Source of the DNA: Chloroflexota bacterium
Lineage (GTDB): Bacteria; Chloroflexota; Anaerolineae; Anaerolineales; Villigracilaceae
DNA: 64,000 bases
Direction of reading: 5' to 3'
Assembly (NCBI GenBank): GCA_016223135.1
Contig: JACRPQ010000006.1
Span: forward strand, 248,001 to 312,000
Part shown: one piece after another, positions 3,233-59,847 of the stretch
Layout of the letters: each line of letters begins with the position of its first letter
Position numbering within the stretch: position 1 is the first letter of the stretch
Translations under genes and position numbers: made by a program
Notes under the pieces: generated by a model
The model's input: only the letters and a program-made list of their open reading frames with translations
Database searches by the model: none
What the model was told of the DNA's origin: nothing

Positions 3233-3356
3233 CTCTTATCCAGAGAGGCGGAGGGAACGGCCCTGTGATGCCTCGACAACCTCTCAGCAATGGTTTCCAT
3301 TAGACCACGCTGAAAAGGTGCCAATTCCGACAGACGGATGTTCTGGGAGATGAGAG
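3233..3356 (+). ncRNA. SAM-I (S-box) riboswitch
   Basis: ctcttatccagagaggcggagggaacggccctgtgatgcctcgacaacc...aaaaggtgccaattcc...gggagatgagag, directly upstream of metK. Confidence 0.93.
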
Positions 3357-11072: not shown

Positions 11073-11192
11073 TAGCGACCTGACAGTTTCAAATGGGACG
11101 CTGAAAAACACAGATAAACGCAGAAAAAAACAACTTAAATCAGCGTAAATCAGCGTTCATCTGCGTCCCAAAACAAAAGTGTCGGGTGGCTA
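11073..11192. mobile_element. MITE-like element, family B (copy 1), 120 bp with 10-bp target duplication
   Basis: TAGCGACCTGACAG...GTGTCGGGTGGCTA ends; aatctttgcc at 11063-11072 and 11193-11202. Confidence 0.8.
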
Positions 11193-15036: not shown

Positions 15037-16479
15037 ATGTGGCACAACTACATCAACGCAACCACAATTGACGAAGCGCTGGCTGTCTTAGCCAAAGAGG
15101 GAGAGCGCGCCCGCCTCATCGCCGGCGGCACTGACCTCCTCCTCGAACTCGAACGCGGCGTCCGCACAGGCATTCACACCGTCATAGACATCTCGCGCAT
15201 CCCTCGCCTCGACCAGATTACCCTCGACGAAGACCGCGTCATTCACCTCGGCGCACTCGTCACACACAACCACTGCGTCGCATCGAAACTCATCCGCGAA
15301 CGGGCGGCACCACTGGCGCGCGCGGCGTGGGAAGTGGGCGCGCCGCAAATCCGCAACCGCGGCACGGTGGCAGGCAACCTCATCACCGCTTCGCCCGCCA
15401 ACGACACCATCACGCCCCTCATGGCGCTTGGCGCATCCGTCACCCTCGCATCCACGCGCGGCACGCGCACAATTCCACTCCAAGACTTCTACACCGGCGT
15501 CCGCAAAACGGTGATGCAGCCCGATGAAATGCTCATCGAGATTTCCTTCCCGGCGATGAAAGAGACTCAGCGCGGGACATTCATCAAACTGGCGCTGCGC
15601 CGCGCCCAGGCAATCTCTGTGGTCAACGTGGCGGTCATTCTTAATCTGGAGGCTGATACTGTCCAATCAGCCTCCATCACGCTGGGAGCGGTTGCCCCCA
15701 CCATCATCCACGCTGCCGAAGCGGAGACTTTCCTCGCCGGCAAGCGGCTCACCGATGAAGTCATCGAAGAATCCGCCCGCCTGACAATGCAAGCCGCTCG
15801 CCCGATTGACGACATCCGCGGTTCCGCCGCGTACCGCCGCGAGATGGTACGCGTTTGCACGCGGCGCGGGTTGAGGTCACTGCGTGATGGGGAGACTCAG
15901 GCTCAGGTCCCGGAAGATGCGGTGCTGTTGTGGGGAAATGAGTCGTCAAAGATCAAAAGTCAAAGGTCGGAATTTCCCGCCAGCCCCATCGAGACAACGG
16001 TCAACGGCAAAAAATACACAGTCAACAGCGGACACGATAAAACCCTGCTAAGATTTCTTCGTGAAGACTTGGGCTTGACTGGCACGAAGGAAGGCTGCGC
16101 CGAGGGCGAATGCGGCGCCTGCACCGTGTTCCTGGACGGCAAGGCGGTGATGGCGTGTCTTGTCCCTGCGCCGCGTGCGCACGGAGCGGAGATTGTCACC
16201 GTTGAAGGTTTGGCAGACCTCACCCCTGCCCTCTCTACGACAGACAGGCTGCACCCCGTGCAGGAGGCTTTCATTCAGGACGGCGCGGTGCAGTGCGGGT
16301 ATTGCACGCCGGGCTTTATCATGTCGGCGGCGAAACTGCTGGAAGAGAAACCCAACCCCAAGCGGGAGGAAATCGAGCAGGCAATTACCGGCAATCTGTG
16401 TCGCTGCACGGGCTATTACAAGATTGTTCAAGCGATTGAACATGCGGCGCAAAGGAAGGTGACAGATGGGCAAGTATAG
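15037..16479 (+). CDS. Fused xanthine-dehydrogenase-family FAD-binding subunit and 2Fe-2S subunit
   Basis: N-terminal half: [43 protein letters not shown]-terminal half: [40 protein letters not shown]; single uninterrupted frame. Confidence 0.93.
15945..15972. repeat. In-frame heptad repeat at the FAD/2Fe-2S domain junction
   Basis: gtcaaag atcaaaa gtcaaag gtcggaa. Confidence 0.7.
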
Positions 16480-28715: not shown

Positions 28716-29393
28716 ATGCCCCAACTCATCCTCGTCGTTGACGACGAACCCAAAGTTGCCCGCCTCGCACGCGACTATCTGGAGAAGAATGGCTTCCGTG
28801 TGTTGACGGCGGGCGACGGTCAATCTGCCCTGACGCTTGCCCGCCGCGACAAACCGGACCTCATCATCCTCGACCTGATGCTCCCCCACATTGACGGGCG
28901 CGAAGTCTGCCGCATTCTGCGCCGTGAAAGTGACGTGCCTATCATCATGTTGACCGCCCTCTCGGAAGAGATAGATCAAGTGACCGGTCTCGAGATTGGC
29001 GCGGACGATTACATCACCAAACCGTTCTCTGTCCGTGCGTTGGTGGCGCGTGTACGCGCTCTCCTGCGCCGCACGCGCGGAGAGGTCAAAGCGCCGAGCG
29101 TCATCCGTCTAGGCGGGCTGGAAATCAATGCCGAAAAACACACAGTGACGTATAACGGCGCTCCGCTCAAACTCACCCCGAACGAATTCAAACTCTTGCA
29201 TCTGCTCGCCAGCCGTGCAGGTCAAATCTTCACCCGCGAGCAACTGCTCGAAGACCTGCACGGCACGGCATCCAGCCTCGACCGCAGCGTGGATTCGCAC
29301 ATCAAGAACTTGAGAAAGAAACTCGAAGCCGCATCGGGAGAGTCCTTGATCGAGACCGTCTATGGTGTCGGCTATCGTTTTAGAGAAAGGTAA
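28716..29393 (+). CDS. OmpR/PhoB-family response regulator
   Basis: Receiver domain (VVDDEPKVARLARDYL, LILDLMLPHIDG) plus winged helix C-terminus. Confidence 0.95.
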   Translation: MPQLILVVDDEPKVARLARDYLEKNGFRVLTAGDGQSALTLARRDKPDLIILDLMLPHIDGREVCRILRRESDVPIIMLTALSEEIDQVTGLEIGADDYITKPFSVRALVARVRALLRRTRGEVKAPSVIRLGGLEINAEKHTVTYNGAPLKLTPNEFKLLHLLASRAGQIFTREQLLEDLHGTASSLDRSVDSHIKNLRKKLEAASGESLIETVYGVGYRFRER

Positions 29394-29435
29394 GTGGTAA
29401 ATGGCAATTACCAATTACCACCTACCAACCACCAC
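29387..29435. repeat. Heptad repeat filling the RR-HK intergenic spacer
   Basis: aaggtaa gtggtaa atggcaa ttaccaa ttaccac ctaccaa ccaccac. Confidence 0.8.
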
Positions 29436-29437
29436 CC

Positions 29438-30493
29438 ATGTCCACCTCCCCTCCCTCAAAAACACGCCGTGTCAGCCGCGCGCTGGCGTTCACCATCTTC
29501 TTTGTTATCTCCGCTGTCATTTTTGTTGGAGGCGTTGCGGCAATCCTTTATCTCCTCTTTTCAAAATACTCCGGCATTCAGAACATCTGGATTCTCATCT
29601 GTGGTGCGCCCATTGTCCTAATTGCAATTGTCCTTGTCACCATCTTCAACCTGTACACCCGCTTTGGTCGTCCGCTCGAACAGCTTTTTAACACAATCAA
29701 CAAAGTGGAGGAAGGCGACCTCTCCGCCCGCGTGCCGGAGAACAAATCCGACATGTTCAGCGACCTCATCAAACGCTTCAACAAAATGGTGGGCGAACTT
29801 GAACGCGCCGAACAACAGCGCCGCAACCTCACCGCCGACATCGCCCACGAACTGCGCACGCCGCTGCACATCATTCAAGGCAATCTCGAAGGCGTTCTGG
29901 ATGGCGTCTATCAACCGACGCCCGAACACATCAACGCCACATTGGATGAAACGCGACTGCTCACGCGCCTCGTCAACGACTTGCAGACCCTCTCCCTCGC
30001 TGAAACCGGACAACTGCCGCTTCACCCCACCCGTTTCCTGCTCGCCGATCTGGCAGCGGATCTTACTTCAAGTTTTGCCTCTCAAGCCGCCTCCCTCGGC
30101 ATTGACCTGCAAACCCGTCTCGCCGACCCGAACCTCGAACTCACCGCCGACTACGACCGGCTGAACCAGGTCCTCTCCAACCTGATTTCAAACGCCCTTC
30201 GCCATACTCCAGCCGGCGGGACCATCTCCATCCACAGCGAACCAATCGAGGGCAATGCCAATTACCATTTACGAATTACCATCCGCGACACCGGCAACGG
30301 CATCCCTCCCGCCGACCTTCCTTTCATCTTCGACCGTTTCTGGCGCGGCGACAAATCGCGCACGGAACGAACCCATAGCGGGCTGGGGCTGGCGATTACC
30401 AAACAACTCGTCCACGCTCACGGCGGGACCATCGAAGCCCAAAGCGAAGTAGGCAAAGGCACAACGTTCATCATCCAGTTGCCGAACAAATAA
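29438..30493 (+). CDS. HAMP-domain sensor histidine kinase
   Basis: TM region, HAMP, H-box NLTADIAHELRTPLHIIQGNLEG, DTGNGIPPADLPFIFDRFWRGD. Confidence 0.95.
   Translation: MSTSPPSKTRRVSRALAFTIFFVISAVIFVGGVAAILYLLFSKYSGIQNIWILICGAPIVLIAIVLVTIFNLYTRFGRPLEQLFNTINKVEEGDLSARVPENKSDMFSDLIKRFNKMVGELERAEQQRRNLTADIAHELRTPLHIIQGNLEGVLDGVYQPTPEHINATLDETRLLTRLVNDLQTLSLAETGQLPLHPTRFLLADLAADLTSSFASQAASLGIDLQTRLADPNLELTADYDRLNQVLSNLISNALRHTPAGGTISIHSEPIEGNANYHLRITIRDTGNGIPPADLPFIFDRFWRGDKSRTERTHSGLGLAITKQLVHAHGGTIEAQSEVGKGTTFIIQLPNK
30252..30286. repeat. In-frame heptad repeat inside the HK ATPase domain
   Basis: gcaatgc caattac catttac gaattac catccgc. Confidence 0.75.
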
Positions 30494-55878: not shown

Positions 55879-55998
55879 TAGCGACCTGACAGTTTCAAAT
55901 GGGACGCTGAAAAACGCAGATAAACGCAGAAAAAAAACAACTAAATCAGCGCAAATCAGCGTTCATCTGCGTCCCAAAACAAAAGTGTCGGGTGGCTA
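55879..55998. mobile_element. MITE-like element, family B (copy 2), 120 bp
   Basis: tagcgacctgacagtttcaaatgggacgc...gcgtcccaaaacaaaagtgtcgggtggcta; flanks aaaagatccc / gaaaaatccg (7/10). Confidence 0.75.
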
Positions 55999-56696: not shown

Positions 56697-57626
56697 ATGG
56701 ACAAACAAATTATCGGTGTACGTTTCACCAAAGTTGGCAAAATCTATCACTTTGATTCCTCTGCCATCCCCGATGTGGAGATCGGCGAGCGCGTCATCGT
56801 GGATACATCCCGCGGCAAACACCTCGGCGAAGTGGTACAGAAATTGCACGAACCGCCTCCCCCGCCGGAGGGCGGCTGGAGGTCGGTGGAGCGGCGCGCC
56901 ACCCCCCGCGACCTGCTCCTGCTTCAGTCGTGGCAGTCCAAACAGACCGAAGCCATGATCAACTGCCGCGCCCGCGCCGCAGAACTGGGTCTCAAGGACA
57001 TCAAAATCGTCGCCGCCGAATACAACTACGACGGCACACGCCTTGCCTTCCTGTTCAGTACCGAAAGCGAAGACAAGGTGGATCTCAAATCGCTCAAAAA
57101 GGATATGAGCGACCTCTACCCCAACACCTACATCGAGATGCGGCAAATCGGTCCGCGCGACGTGGCAAAACTGCTGGGCGGCATGGGCGCCTGCGGCATC
57201 GAGACGCGCTGCTGCTCCAAATTCCTGACCGAGTTCTCGCCCATCTCCATCAAAATGGCAAAAGAACAGGGCATCTCGCTCACGCCCGAAGAAATCACGG
57301 GTATGTGCGGACGCCTGCGCTGCTGCCTCATCTACGAATACGAACAATACGTCGAAGCCCGCAAACAGCTGCCCAAACGCAACAAGAGAGTCGTCACACC
57401 CAAGGGTGAAGGCAAAGTGATTGACGTCCTCCCCATGAGCAACCAGGTCATCGTCCAAATCGAAGATGCGGAAGGCAAACGCACGCGCGAAACCTTCTCC
57501 CGCGAAGACATCCAACCCTGGGACGAACTTGAGGCGCTGCGGCGCAAATCCGAAGCCCCCTGCGACAGACACAACACAGGCGGATGCACCTGCGGCAAGA
57601 AAAGCCCGCTCGACCGCAACAACTGA
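56697..57626 (+). CDS. ricT: PSP1-domain protein (RicT/YaaT-like)
   Basis: 'IGVRFTKVGKIYHFD', 'MRQIGPRDVAKLLGGMGACGIETRCCSKFL', 'GMCGRLRCCLIYEYEQY'. Confidence 0.93.
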   Translation: MDKQIIGVRFTKVGKIYHFDSSAIPDVEIGERVIVDTSRGKHLGEVVQKLHEPPPPPEGGWRSVERRATPRDLLLLQSWQSKQTEAMINCRARAAELGLKDIKIVAAEYNYDGTRLAFLFSTESEDKVDLKSLKKDMSDLYPNTYIEMRQIGPRDVAKLLGGMGACGIETRCCSKFLTEFSPISIKMAKEQGISLTPEEITGMCGRLRCCLIYEYEQYVEARKQLPKRNKRVVTPKGEGKVIDVLPMSNQVIVQIEDAEGKRTRETFSREDIQPWDELEALRRKSEAPCDRHNTGGCTCGKKSPLDRNN

Positions 57627-57629
57627 CCC

Positions 57630-57685
57630 TTGGAACATGAAACTTGGAACGTGGAACTTGAAACGTGACGCTTGAAACCTGGGAA
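57630..57685. repeat. Heptad repeat filling the ricT-PIG-L spacer and overlapping the PIG-L N-terminus
   Basis: ttggaac atgaaac ttggaac gtggaac ttgaaac gtgacgc ttgaaac ctgggaa. Confidence 0.8.
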
Positions 57686-58387
57686 TCCCCTCAACACATC
57701 CTCGTCATCCTCGCCCACCCCGACGACCCTGAATTCTTCTGCGGAGCGACCCTCGCCAAATGGGCGCGCCAGGGACACCGCATCACCTACCTCCTCCTCA
57801 CCTGCGGCGACAAGGGCTTCAACCCTACCACCGACCCCGGCATGACGCCCGCCAGGCTGTGCGCCATCCGTCACGAAGAACAGCACGCCGCGGCAAAAAT
57901 CATCGGCGCGGAATCCGTCCACATCCTTGACCATCCCGACGGCTACCTCGTTCCAGACCTGAACCTGCGCCGCGAAGTTGTCCGTGAAATCCGCCGCCAC
58001 AAACCCGACATCCTCGTCACCTGCGACCCGCAAAACCTATTCGCCACCTACGGCATCAACCACCCCGACCACCGCGCCGCCGGACAGGTTGTGCTCGACG
58101 CCGTCTTCCCCGCCGCCGGCAACCCGGTCTACTTCCCTGAACTGCTTGAGGAAGGCTTTCCGCCGCACATGCCCAGGGAAGTCTGGTGTTCGCTGACCAT
58201 GCAGCCCAACGTCACCGTTGACGTCACCGACACATGGGAAATCAAAATCCAGGCAATCCTCCAGCATAAGACACAGGTTCAAGACCCTGCCAGCCTCATC
58301 GAACGCTTCAAATCCCGCCGCGCCGAAGACAGCACGGAAGAAAACCCGCGATACGAGGAAAAATTCAGAGTAGTCAAATACCAGTGA
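57665..58387 (+). CDS. PIG-L/LmbE-family deacetylase
   Basis: 'ILVILAHPDDPEFFCGATLAKWARQGHRITYLLLTCGDKG'; GTG start inferred. Confidence 0.92.
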   Translation: MTLETWESPQHILVILAHPDDPEFFCGATLAKWARQGHRITYLLLTCGDKGFNPTTDPGMTPARLCAIRHEEQHAAAKIIGAESVHILDHPDGYLVPDLNLRREVVREIRRHKPDILVTCDPQNLFATYGINHPDHRAAGQVVLDAVFPAAGNPVYFPELLEEGFPPHMPREVWCSLTMQPNVTVDVTDTWEIKIQAILQHKTQVQDPASLIERFKSRRAEDSTEENPRYEEKFRVVKYQ

Positions 58388-58390
58388 GTA

Positions 58391-58476
58391 ACTCACCTTA
58401 CGCAGTTCCTTCGTAGGGCGACATTTATGTCGCCCGAAAACGCGAGATAAATCTCGCGCTACCGCGTAAGGTGAGT
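58391..58476. mobile_element. MITE-like element, family D (copy 2), 86 bp with 5-bp target duplication
   Basis: GAGTA|ACTCACCTTACGC...GCGTAAGGTGAGT|GAGTA. Confidence 0.82.
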
Positions 58477-58484
58477 GAGTAAAA

Positions 58485-58652
58485 GTCGCAGGTCAAAGGT
58501 TGCAGATCAAACATCAAAAGTCTCACACAGCCGCTTTCGACATCCAGCCTCTAACTTTCGACCTGAGACTTTCGACTTTCGACTTTAGACCAGAGACTTT
58601 CGACTTTCGACTTTAGACCTGAGCCTTTCAACCTCCAACCCCTCCCGGAGCC
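58485..58652. repeat. 24-unit degenerate heptad array filling the spacer before the M20 gene
   Basis: gtcgcag gtcaaag gttgcag atcaaac atcaaaa ... ctttcga ctttcga ctttaga ccagaga ctttcga ctttcga ctttaga cctgagc ctttcaa cctccaa. Confidence 0.9.
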
Positions 58653-58656
58653 TCCC

Positions 58657-59847
58657 ATGCCCAACTTCCTCCAACAAGCCAAAGACCTCTTCCCCTACAC
58701 CCAAGCCCTGCGCCGTGACTTCCACCGCCACCCCGAACTCGGCTTCCGGGAAATTCGCACCAGCGGCATTGTCGCCAAAGAACTCGAAGCGCTCGGCATC
58801 GAAGTCACCAAAGGCGTCGGCAAGACGGGCGTCGTCGGCTATCTCGAAGGCGGCAAGCCGGGTCCCACCATCCTGCTCCGCTTCGACATGGATGCCCTTC
58901 CCATCACCGAAGAGACCGGCGCAGAATACGCCTCCACCAACCCCGGCGTCATGCACGCCTGCGGACACGACGGTCATACCGCCATCGGCTTGACCGTCGC
59001 CAAAATCCTCAACGAACACAAAAGCGAACTCGCGGGCAGCGTCAAATTCTGCTTCCAACCCTCCGAAGAAGGCACGAACGGCGAAGAGGTCGGCGGCGCA
59101 CTCATGATGATGCGCGACGGCGTGCTCGACTCGCCCAAAGTCGAAAAAACCCTCGCCCTGCACCTGTGGAACGACAACCCCCTCGGCTGGATTCACGTCG
59201 CCAAAGGACCCGTCATGGCGGGAGCGGAACTCTTCAACGTCAAATTGACCGGCAAAGGCGGTCATGGCGCCGCGCCCGATACTGCCGTGGACCCGGTCGT
59301 CTGCGTCGCGCACATCACCGCCGCCCTGCAAACCATCGTTGCGCGCAACGTCCCGCCCCTCAAGCCGGCCGTCGTCAGCGTCACATCCATTCACGCCGGC
59401 ACCGCCTTCAACATCATCCCCCAAACCGCCGAACTCAACGGCACCATCCGCACCTTCGACCCCGAAGTCCGCCAACTTGTCCTCGAACGTTTCCACCAAA
59501 TCGTCACGGGCATCGCCTCGTCCTTCGGATGCGCCGCTGAAATCGCCACCCAACAAGTCACCGCTCCCGTCATCAACAACGAAGATGTCGCCGCCAGCGT
59601 CCAACGCTCGGCGCAGGCAATCTTCCCCGATACGCCCATCGCCGACTACGCCTACCTCACCATGGGCGCCGAAGACATGGGCTGGATGCAGGAAAAAGTG
59701 GACGGCTGTTACTTCTTCATTGGCTCAGCCAACGCCGAGAAGAACCTCAACTACAACCATCACCACCCCAAATTCGACTTTGACGAACAAGCGCTCATTC
59801 ACGGCGTAGCGCTAATGGCGACAGCCGCCGCAGACTTACTCAAGTGA
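58657..59847 (+). CDS. M20-family amidohydrolase
   Basis: 'RRDFHRHPELGFREIRTS', 'MDALPITEETGAEYAS', 'HACGHDGHTAIGL'. Confidence 0.94.
   Translation: MPNFLQQAKDLFPYTQALRRDFHRHPELGFREIRTSGIVAKELEALGIEVTKGVGKTGVVGYLEGGKPGPTILLRFDMDALPITEETGAEYASTNPGVMHACGHDGHTAIGLTVAKILNEHKSELAGSVKFCFQPSEEGTNGEEVGGALMMMRDGVLDSPKVEKTLALHLWNDNPLGWIHVAKGPVMAGAELFNVKLTGKGGHGAAPDTAVDPVVCVAHITAALQTIVARNVPPLKPAVVSVTSIHAGTAFNIIPQTAELNGTIRTFDPEVRQLVLERFHQIVTGIASSFGCAAEIATQQVTAPVINNEDVAASVQRSAQAIFPDTPIADYAYLTMGAEDMGWMQEKVDGCYFFIGSANAEKNLNYNHHHPKFDFDEQALIHGVALMATAAADLLK

Follow-up and report, generated by a model that had tools for sequence, protein, structure and literature searches.

A degenerate heptad array between two Chloroflexota genes as a possible decayed representative of a large intercistronic array class

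Many bacteria carry heptad repeats, for which no origin or function has gained acceptance. The STRR of filamentous cyanobacteria are heptanucleotide tandem repeats with several words per genome. In Xanthomonas (GGGAATC, or (GGGANTN)n) and Nostoc (GGGGA(C/T)T), 7-nt degenerate words have been described in which positions 1-4 and 6 are conserved and positions 5 and 7 vary (PMC4692102). These repeats are intergenic, lie near the 5′ gene and mostly between co-directional genes, rarely between divergent ones; in Xcc, 70 of 186 repeats occur in convergent inverted pairs, and repeat lengths vary among related species (PMC4692102). Each genome carries one G-rich word, for which a G-quadruplex has been proposed (PMC4692102). 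In the trnL (UAA) intron of Nostoc, the P6b element is a stem-loop of degenerate heptads of Class I (TDNGATT) or Class II (NNTGAGT), and the word class or the whole stem has been replaced repeatedly at this one site by a mechanism that is unknown (PMC4476775). REP/BIME elements with GTAG or CGTC tags are near-identical copies of 20-40 bp (PMC3733652), and the TAACTGA heptamers of Beggiatoaceae and Cyanobacteria are direct repeats upstream of start codons (PMC4679880). For Chloroflexi, the available text of one source describes heptamer-derived (GATAGRA)n satellites in the genome of Chloroflexus aurantiacus (PMC6749651), and these were the only heptads found in the literature on Chloroflexota.

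We analysed a window of 64,000 nt of DNA from a Chloroflexota bacterium, in which a preliminary description had reported 24 consecutive degenerate 7-nt units filling an entire intergenic spacer. The features of the locus are as follows.

57631..57678, plus strand: second period-7 array, of TTGGAAC/CTTGAAA words (TRF periods 7 and 14; lag-7 region 57623-57682)
57665..58387, plus strand: upstream gene of the PIG-L (GlcNAc-PI de-N-acetylase) family (PF02585, E 4.2e-30)
58388..58479, plus strand: dispersed nested palindrome with two inverted GTAG-tagged hairpins (REP-pair type), 5′ part of the array's spacer (copies; fold z -7.9)
58485..58652, plus strand: degenerate heptad array of the GAC/GTC word family, right-arm consensus CTTTCGA (lag-7 z 8.4; exact parse)
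58485..58532, plus strand: left arm of the array, GTCAAAG-like minus-orientation units (lag-7 p 0.004; 27/42 against the right-arm reverse complement)
58533..58652, plus strand: right arm of the array, CTTTCGA-like plus-orientation units (lag-7 0.63 over 58533-58630, 0/500 shuffles)
58554..58629, plus strand: 28-nt higher-order repeat, 2.7 copies with 91% matches (TRF)
58657..59847, plus strand: downstream M20 family peptidase gene (PF01546, E 2e-37)

The array indeed parses exactly into the 24 units described, running from the first g of gtcgcag at 58485 to 58652, with the M20 ATG at 58657. Its autocorrelation at lags 7, 14, 21 and 28 was 0.56, 0.53, 0.53 and 0.54, compared with ~0.26 in 1000 dinucleotide shuffles (z of 8.4, 7.6, 7.4 and 7.3, respectively), and among the remaining lags up to 42 only the multiples 35 and 42 were raised as well, every other lag being flat. 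The two parts are each periodic on their own, with a lag-7 value of 0.51 on the left (58485-58532, p 0.004) and 0.63 on the right (58533-58630, reached by 0/500 shuffles). Periodicity is weak in the final units (58624-58652, p 0.03), the last three of which extend into the M20 ribosome-binding region, and units 7, 9, 10 and 22-24 as read from the sequence are only weakly related to the array consensus. TRF also recovered the 28-nt higher-order unit noted earlier. The left units had moreover been said to resemble the complement of the right ones, making the array a large imperfect palindrome, and this was borne out: the left 42 nt matched the reverse complement of the right part at 27/42 positions in the best ungapped alignment (shuffled mean 18.2, maximum 24, 0/500), while no significant similarity was found in direct orientation. 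The hairpin itself is decayed, the predicted RNA structure of the window array being no more stable than that of shuffled sequences (fold z -0.6).

What did not stand is that the array makes up the whole spacer, as it covers only the 3′ 168 nt of the 269-nt spacer between the PIG-L and M20 genes (58388-58656). The first ~90 nt are a separate palindromic element, built of ACTCACCTTACGC / GCGTAAGGTGAGT arms surrounding the two inverted GTAG-tagged hairpins. This REP-pair-like element has many copies in the genome of the window and in the closest congener (G017), including one of 98.8% identity elsewhere in the former and copies of 86-95% in the latter, none of them at the orthologous spacer. On the other side of the PIG-L gene, the array at 57631-57678 overlaps the called GTG start, which may therefore be misplaced. 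Further heptad runs in the window, of CAATTAC and GTCAAAG words, lie at 29383-29446 and, as single-family lag-7 runs, at 15945, 30258, 32963 and 49982. A dispersed period-10 element, ACGCAGATAAACGCAGAAAAAAACAACTTAAATCAGCG, is present at 11098-11172 and 55904-55961. The single Rfam match in the window was a SAM riboswitch (3233-3356; RF00162, 77.8 bits); there was no intron match, and no tRNA was found in it.

Period 7 was enriched genome-wide relative to shuffled controls. Specifically, the pattern GACTTTCGACTTTCGAC, allowing at most 2 mismatches, had 102 matches in the 3.82-Mb genome of the window against 0 for the reversed pattern. On contig C3 (780 kb), 40 strong local runs were present at lag 7 and 24 at lag 8; the remaining lags between 4 and 13 had few or none, and a second-order Markov control had zero. 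Across 1.58 Mb of this genome and G017, lag-7 runs were present in 75 of 749 spacers and lag-8 runs in 30, compared with ~1 after shuffling; lag 10 was also raised in these spacers, owing to the dispersed period-10 element mentioned above. At least five word families can be distinguished among the runs, namely GACNTTN, CANTTAC, ACTGNTN, AATCNNN and the octad GTNTACNT, plus minor ones. One octad palindrome of GTNTACNT words is very long, with ~20 units in its left arm (G000:C3:625748-625944), and corresponds to a 4-nt spacer in G017. Of 120 genomes from the taxonomic family, 72 carried the GACNTTN pattern, as did 26 genomes in a phylum-wide sample of 400; several array-poor congeners are without the GAC family. 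In a distant family of the same phylum (f25), genome G352 contained 345 matches to nearly exact CAGATTG heptads, arranged in facing pairs with conserved arm order. Outside the phylum as well as within it, prokaryotic genomes carry exact (GACTTTC)3GAC in at least 118 stretches, among them ones from Bacteroidales, Flavobacterium, Hydrococcus, Phycisphaerae and Chloroflexi; 80 such loci held 140 lag-7 runs, of which up to 80 are the seeds themselves, against 15 at lag 8.

The exact 7-nt period combined with much unit divergence, which the preliminary description had regarded as the puzzle, holds in part only: the period is not exclusively 7, given the octad family, and the divergence is structured into a fixed core and hypervariable positions, unlike the random decay of a single repeat. 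Within GAC words, the TT core is ~80% T and positions 4 and 7 hold mostly T or C, while in octads position 8 is 95% T and positions 3 and 7 vary widely, a pattern that was reproduced with independent anchors. These values come from family-wise anchored counts, which replaced pooled per-array columns, the heterogeneity of which barely exceeds a uniform-mutation null, probably because facing arms are mixed in them. Neighbouring GAC units are identical at a rate of 0.122, about twice the 0.056 for units of different arrays, so that the arrays do not resemble freshly slipped single units. Duplications of 14 and 28 nt were found within arrays.

In all 53 neighbouring opposite-strand pairs (53:0, five families) the same arm comes first, and match lists from other genomes of the family and phylum, read by eye, displayed an equal arm order. 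Array-bearing spacers are co-directional in 80 of 87 cases, compared with 354 of 473 array-free spacers of 60-250 nt (OR 3.8, p 2e-4), on gene calls from a simple dicodon caller that places some arrays inside its ORFs. An array typically runs from directly after the upstream stop codon to directly before the downstream start or ribosome-binding site. In some families the orientation of single arms relative to transcription is biased (AATC plus 17:2, ACTG minus 16:5). Unit-by-unit covariation between arms did not exceed chance in 33 arrays (p 0.81), and the 5′ and 3′ arms showed no significant bias in RNA wobble pairs.

Comparison with relatives revealed gain and loss of units, and the PIG-L/M20 spacer did not behave as an ordinary conserved one among the 18 congeners compared. 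In G017, whose M20 protein is 93% identical, it holds a different palindromic GTC/GAC array that begins at the stop codon and is not accompanied by the REP-type element; in G058 it holds a GTTGAAA/TTTCAAC-type palindrome, and in the remaining congeners either short runs of the CAATTAC type, palindromic elements of another kind, or neither of these. The NuoI-NuoJ spacer of the nuo operon (NuoJ identified by Pfam Oxidored_q3) bears an array in 12 of 17 congeners, belonging by eye to five families: octad in 5, GATT/AATC in 4, and CAGT, GGTAATT and GAATTAGAG in 1 each. The remaining species have remnant-like sequence (3) or a 9-nt spacer (2). All 12 arrays fold below their shuffles (z -2.6 to -5.8) and the 3 remnants do not. 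On a concatenated protein tree, at least 9 changes of state at NuoI-NuoJ are needed when none and remnant are counted as states, and the fully supported sister pairs G000/G017, G105/G111 and G084/G078 are each unlike at this site. NuoK-L required at least 7 changes on the same tree; here the genome of the window has a 65-nt spacer with an array and G017 a 9-nt spacer, with flanking genes that can be aligned right up to it. At G000:C3:655540-655714 and its G017 ortholog, outer GGTAATT/AATTACC arms are shared around two different inner hairpin elements, as if these palindromes exchange or insert at their tips.

Near-identical copies of the arrays are lacking. For 86 arrays in 1.18 Mb of the genome of the window, the best non-self identity times coverage had a median of 0.69 and a maximum of 0.86, compared with 0.98 for REP-type controls, which speaks against copy-and-paste mobility; a longest-common-substring test yielded a mild excess over block shuffles. 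The CAGT cassette at NuoI-NuoJ in G017, where G000 has another family, has its best other copies in its own genome at 88-89% over 55-59 of 70 nt, suggesting that lineages exchange cassettes while no recent donor copy is visible. Two gene-based causes were also set aside. Y1 genes are present in 18 of 18 congeners, array-poor genomes included, which removes a RAYT/Y1 transposase as driver, and MutL is likewise present in 18 of 18, so that loss of mismatch repair is not the cause. Y1 transposases and MutL thus account for neither the abundance nor the turnover of the arrays.

Our tentative reading, to which we give slightly less than an even chance, is that this Chloroflexota-like genus possesses a large class of intercistronic arrays, of which the window array is a decayed representative, and that these arrays grow in place on inverted-repeat seeds and are retained where a hairpin is tolerated or useful. 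The arrays consist of words of 7 or 8 nt, in which hypervariable positions accompany a fixed core, in a single arm or in two facing arms able to form a stem-loop. They would extend on small seeds by one word per step, via slippage and template switching across the hairpin during replication, and where they persist, arm orientation and pairing core would be maintained and the exact words would not. Arrays in operons such as nuo would be expected within the mRNA. Growth in place is suggested by the absence of near-identical copies together with the local duplications, and a structural role by location, by arm orientation and by foldability that is retained at NuoI-NuoJ despite the exchange of words. 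The combination is the most economical mechanism, neither half of which is proven. Against it stand the missing arm covariation and wobble bias and the folding of the window copy, which is no better than that of shuffles; moreover, units next to each other differ nearly as much as units from separate arrays, which plain slippage would not lead one to expect. Retention at NuoI-NuoJ could also reflect a permissive site, not function, and the array-poor congeners that lack the GAC family manage without it.

The arrays might instead be neutral heptad microsatellites, in which slippage favours 7-nt steps, mutation decays the units, and survival occurs where spacers tolerate them, inside operons and away from promoters. 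We regard this as unlikely yet a serious contender. An over-representation of heptamers has been reported for many bacteria, together with a polymerase-footprint slippage hypothesis (cited in PMC4692102), and both the homogeneous CAGATTG arrays of the distant relative and the local 14- and 28-nt duplications agree with such an origin. Slippage alone, however, leaves the fixed-core variability, the mixed neighbours and the 53:0 polarity unexplained. The repeated exchange of the word family at one site also argues against neutral microsatellites, and a loss of MutL is not available as their cause.

Mobility of the REP/MITE kind, in which each family would be a non-autonomous palindrome spread by a transposase such as RAYT and swaps would be insertions and excisions, seems improbable to us. 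The arrays are palindromic and intergenic with clean presence or absence, Y1-type transposases exist in the genome, REP-type elements share the spacers of arrays, and common descent would give each family a single polarity. The 86 arrays are nevertheless without near-identical copies, while REP-type elements of the same genome are 98.8% identical; the NuoI-NuoJ cassette of G017 likewise has no close full-length copy, Y1 genes are found also in array-poor congeners, and inspection of NuoK-L recognised neither constant ends nor a target duplication. An equally low probability attaches to a dedicated, widely distributed activity that would write heptad and octad words de novo into intercistronic hairpins and overwrite families, from a word list partly common to Chloroflexota and Cyanobacteria. 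It is compatible with the data in that copies are absent, neighbouring units are mixed, polarity is fixed and family exchange is repeated.

Still less probable are binding-site arrays, by analogy with TRAP or CsrA, in which an RNA- or DNA-binding protein would read the fixed core of the tandem words. Fixed core, free positions, fixed spacing and the single-arm orientation bias of the AATC and ACTG families would suit such a protein, but at least five unrelated words and an 8-nt period swap at one site, one protein would not read all of them, and the direction of the orientation bias differs by family. Assembly artefact or chance periodicity, for which no supporting point was found, is practically negligible in view of the lag-7 z of 8.4, the 102 matches against 0 for the reversed pattern in the same genome, and the recurrence of the same word family in an independent assembly at the orthologous spacer.

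Intergenic arrays of degenerate heptads, often in facing pairs, are a known kind, and the arrays described here have its properties: a 7-nt period above shuffles, degeneracy at fixed positions, and a co-directional context with facing pairs. STRRs share with them the heptad period and the use of several words per genome. A heptanucleotide precedent had rightly been cited, but better precedents than STRRs in general seem to be the degenerate, paired GGGANTN arrays of Xanthomonas and the trnL P6b heptads of Nostoc. The GGGANTN repeats resemble the present arrays in degeneracy pattern, convergent pairs, location after the 5′ gene and co-directional context. Unlike the Xanthomonas and Nostoc repeats, the arrays here use at least five words plus an octad, none of GACNTTN, CANTTAC, ACTGNTN, AATCNNN and GTNTACNT having a G-run fit for a G-quadruplex, and the word family is exchanged at orthologous sites.

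For the Nostoc P6b stem, a TDNGATT probe gave 69 four-unit matches in the genome of the window against 0 reversed, and was present in 40 of 100 genomes of the family. This match concerns the AATC family only, the window array being of the GAC family and not an instance, and the Class II word NNTGAGT was absent from the genus members searched. P6b is moreover one locus with two classes within a group I intron, whereas the arrays here are intercistronic, with hundreds of loci expected and at least five families; the window array itself lies between cistrons rather than in a trnL intron. REP/BIME elements are likewise intergenic palindromes, often in co-directional context and in inverted pairs, and probably transcribed (PMC3733652), but the arrays consist of tandem 7/8-nt words and have neither a tag nor near-identical copies. 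No GTAG or CGTC tag was recognised at the window array, the tag sitting in the preceding element. The TAACTGA repeats differ in being a nearly exact single word with almost no inverted arrangement (PMC4679880), and the C. aurantiacus satellites consist of a single word, the available text of that source describing neither palindromic pairing nor family exchange (PMC6749651).

New here are the many interchangeable words together with an octad family, the invariant polarity, and the repeated family exchange at one intercistronic site. The genus is a natural experiment: at one intercistronic position such as NuoI-NuoJ, close relatives carry hairpin-forming arrays that are interchangeable although their word families differ, which makes growth, replacement and function separable. 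The Xanthomonas GGGANTN pairs, the Nostoc P6b heptad classes and the Chloroflexi satellites are thereby joined as one architecture, in one case with a shared word.
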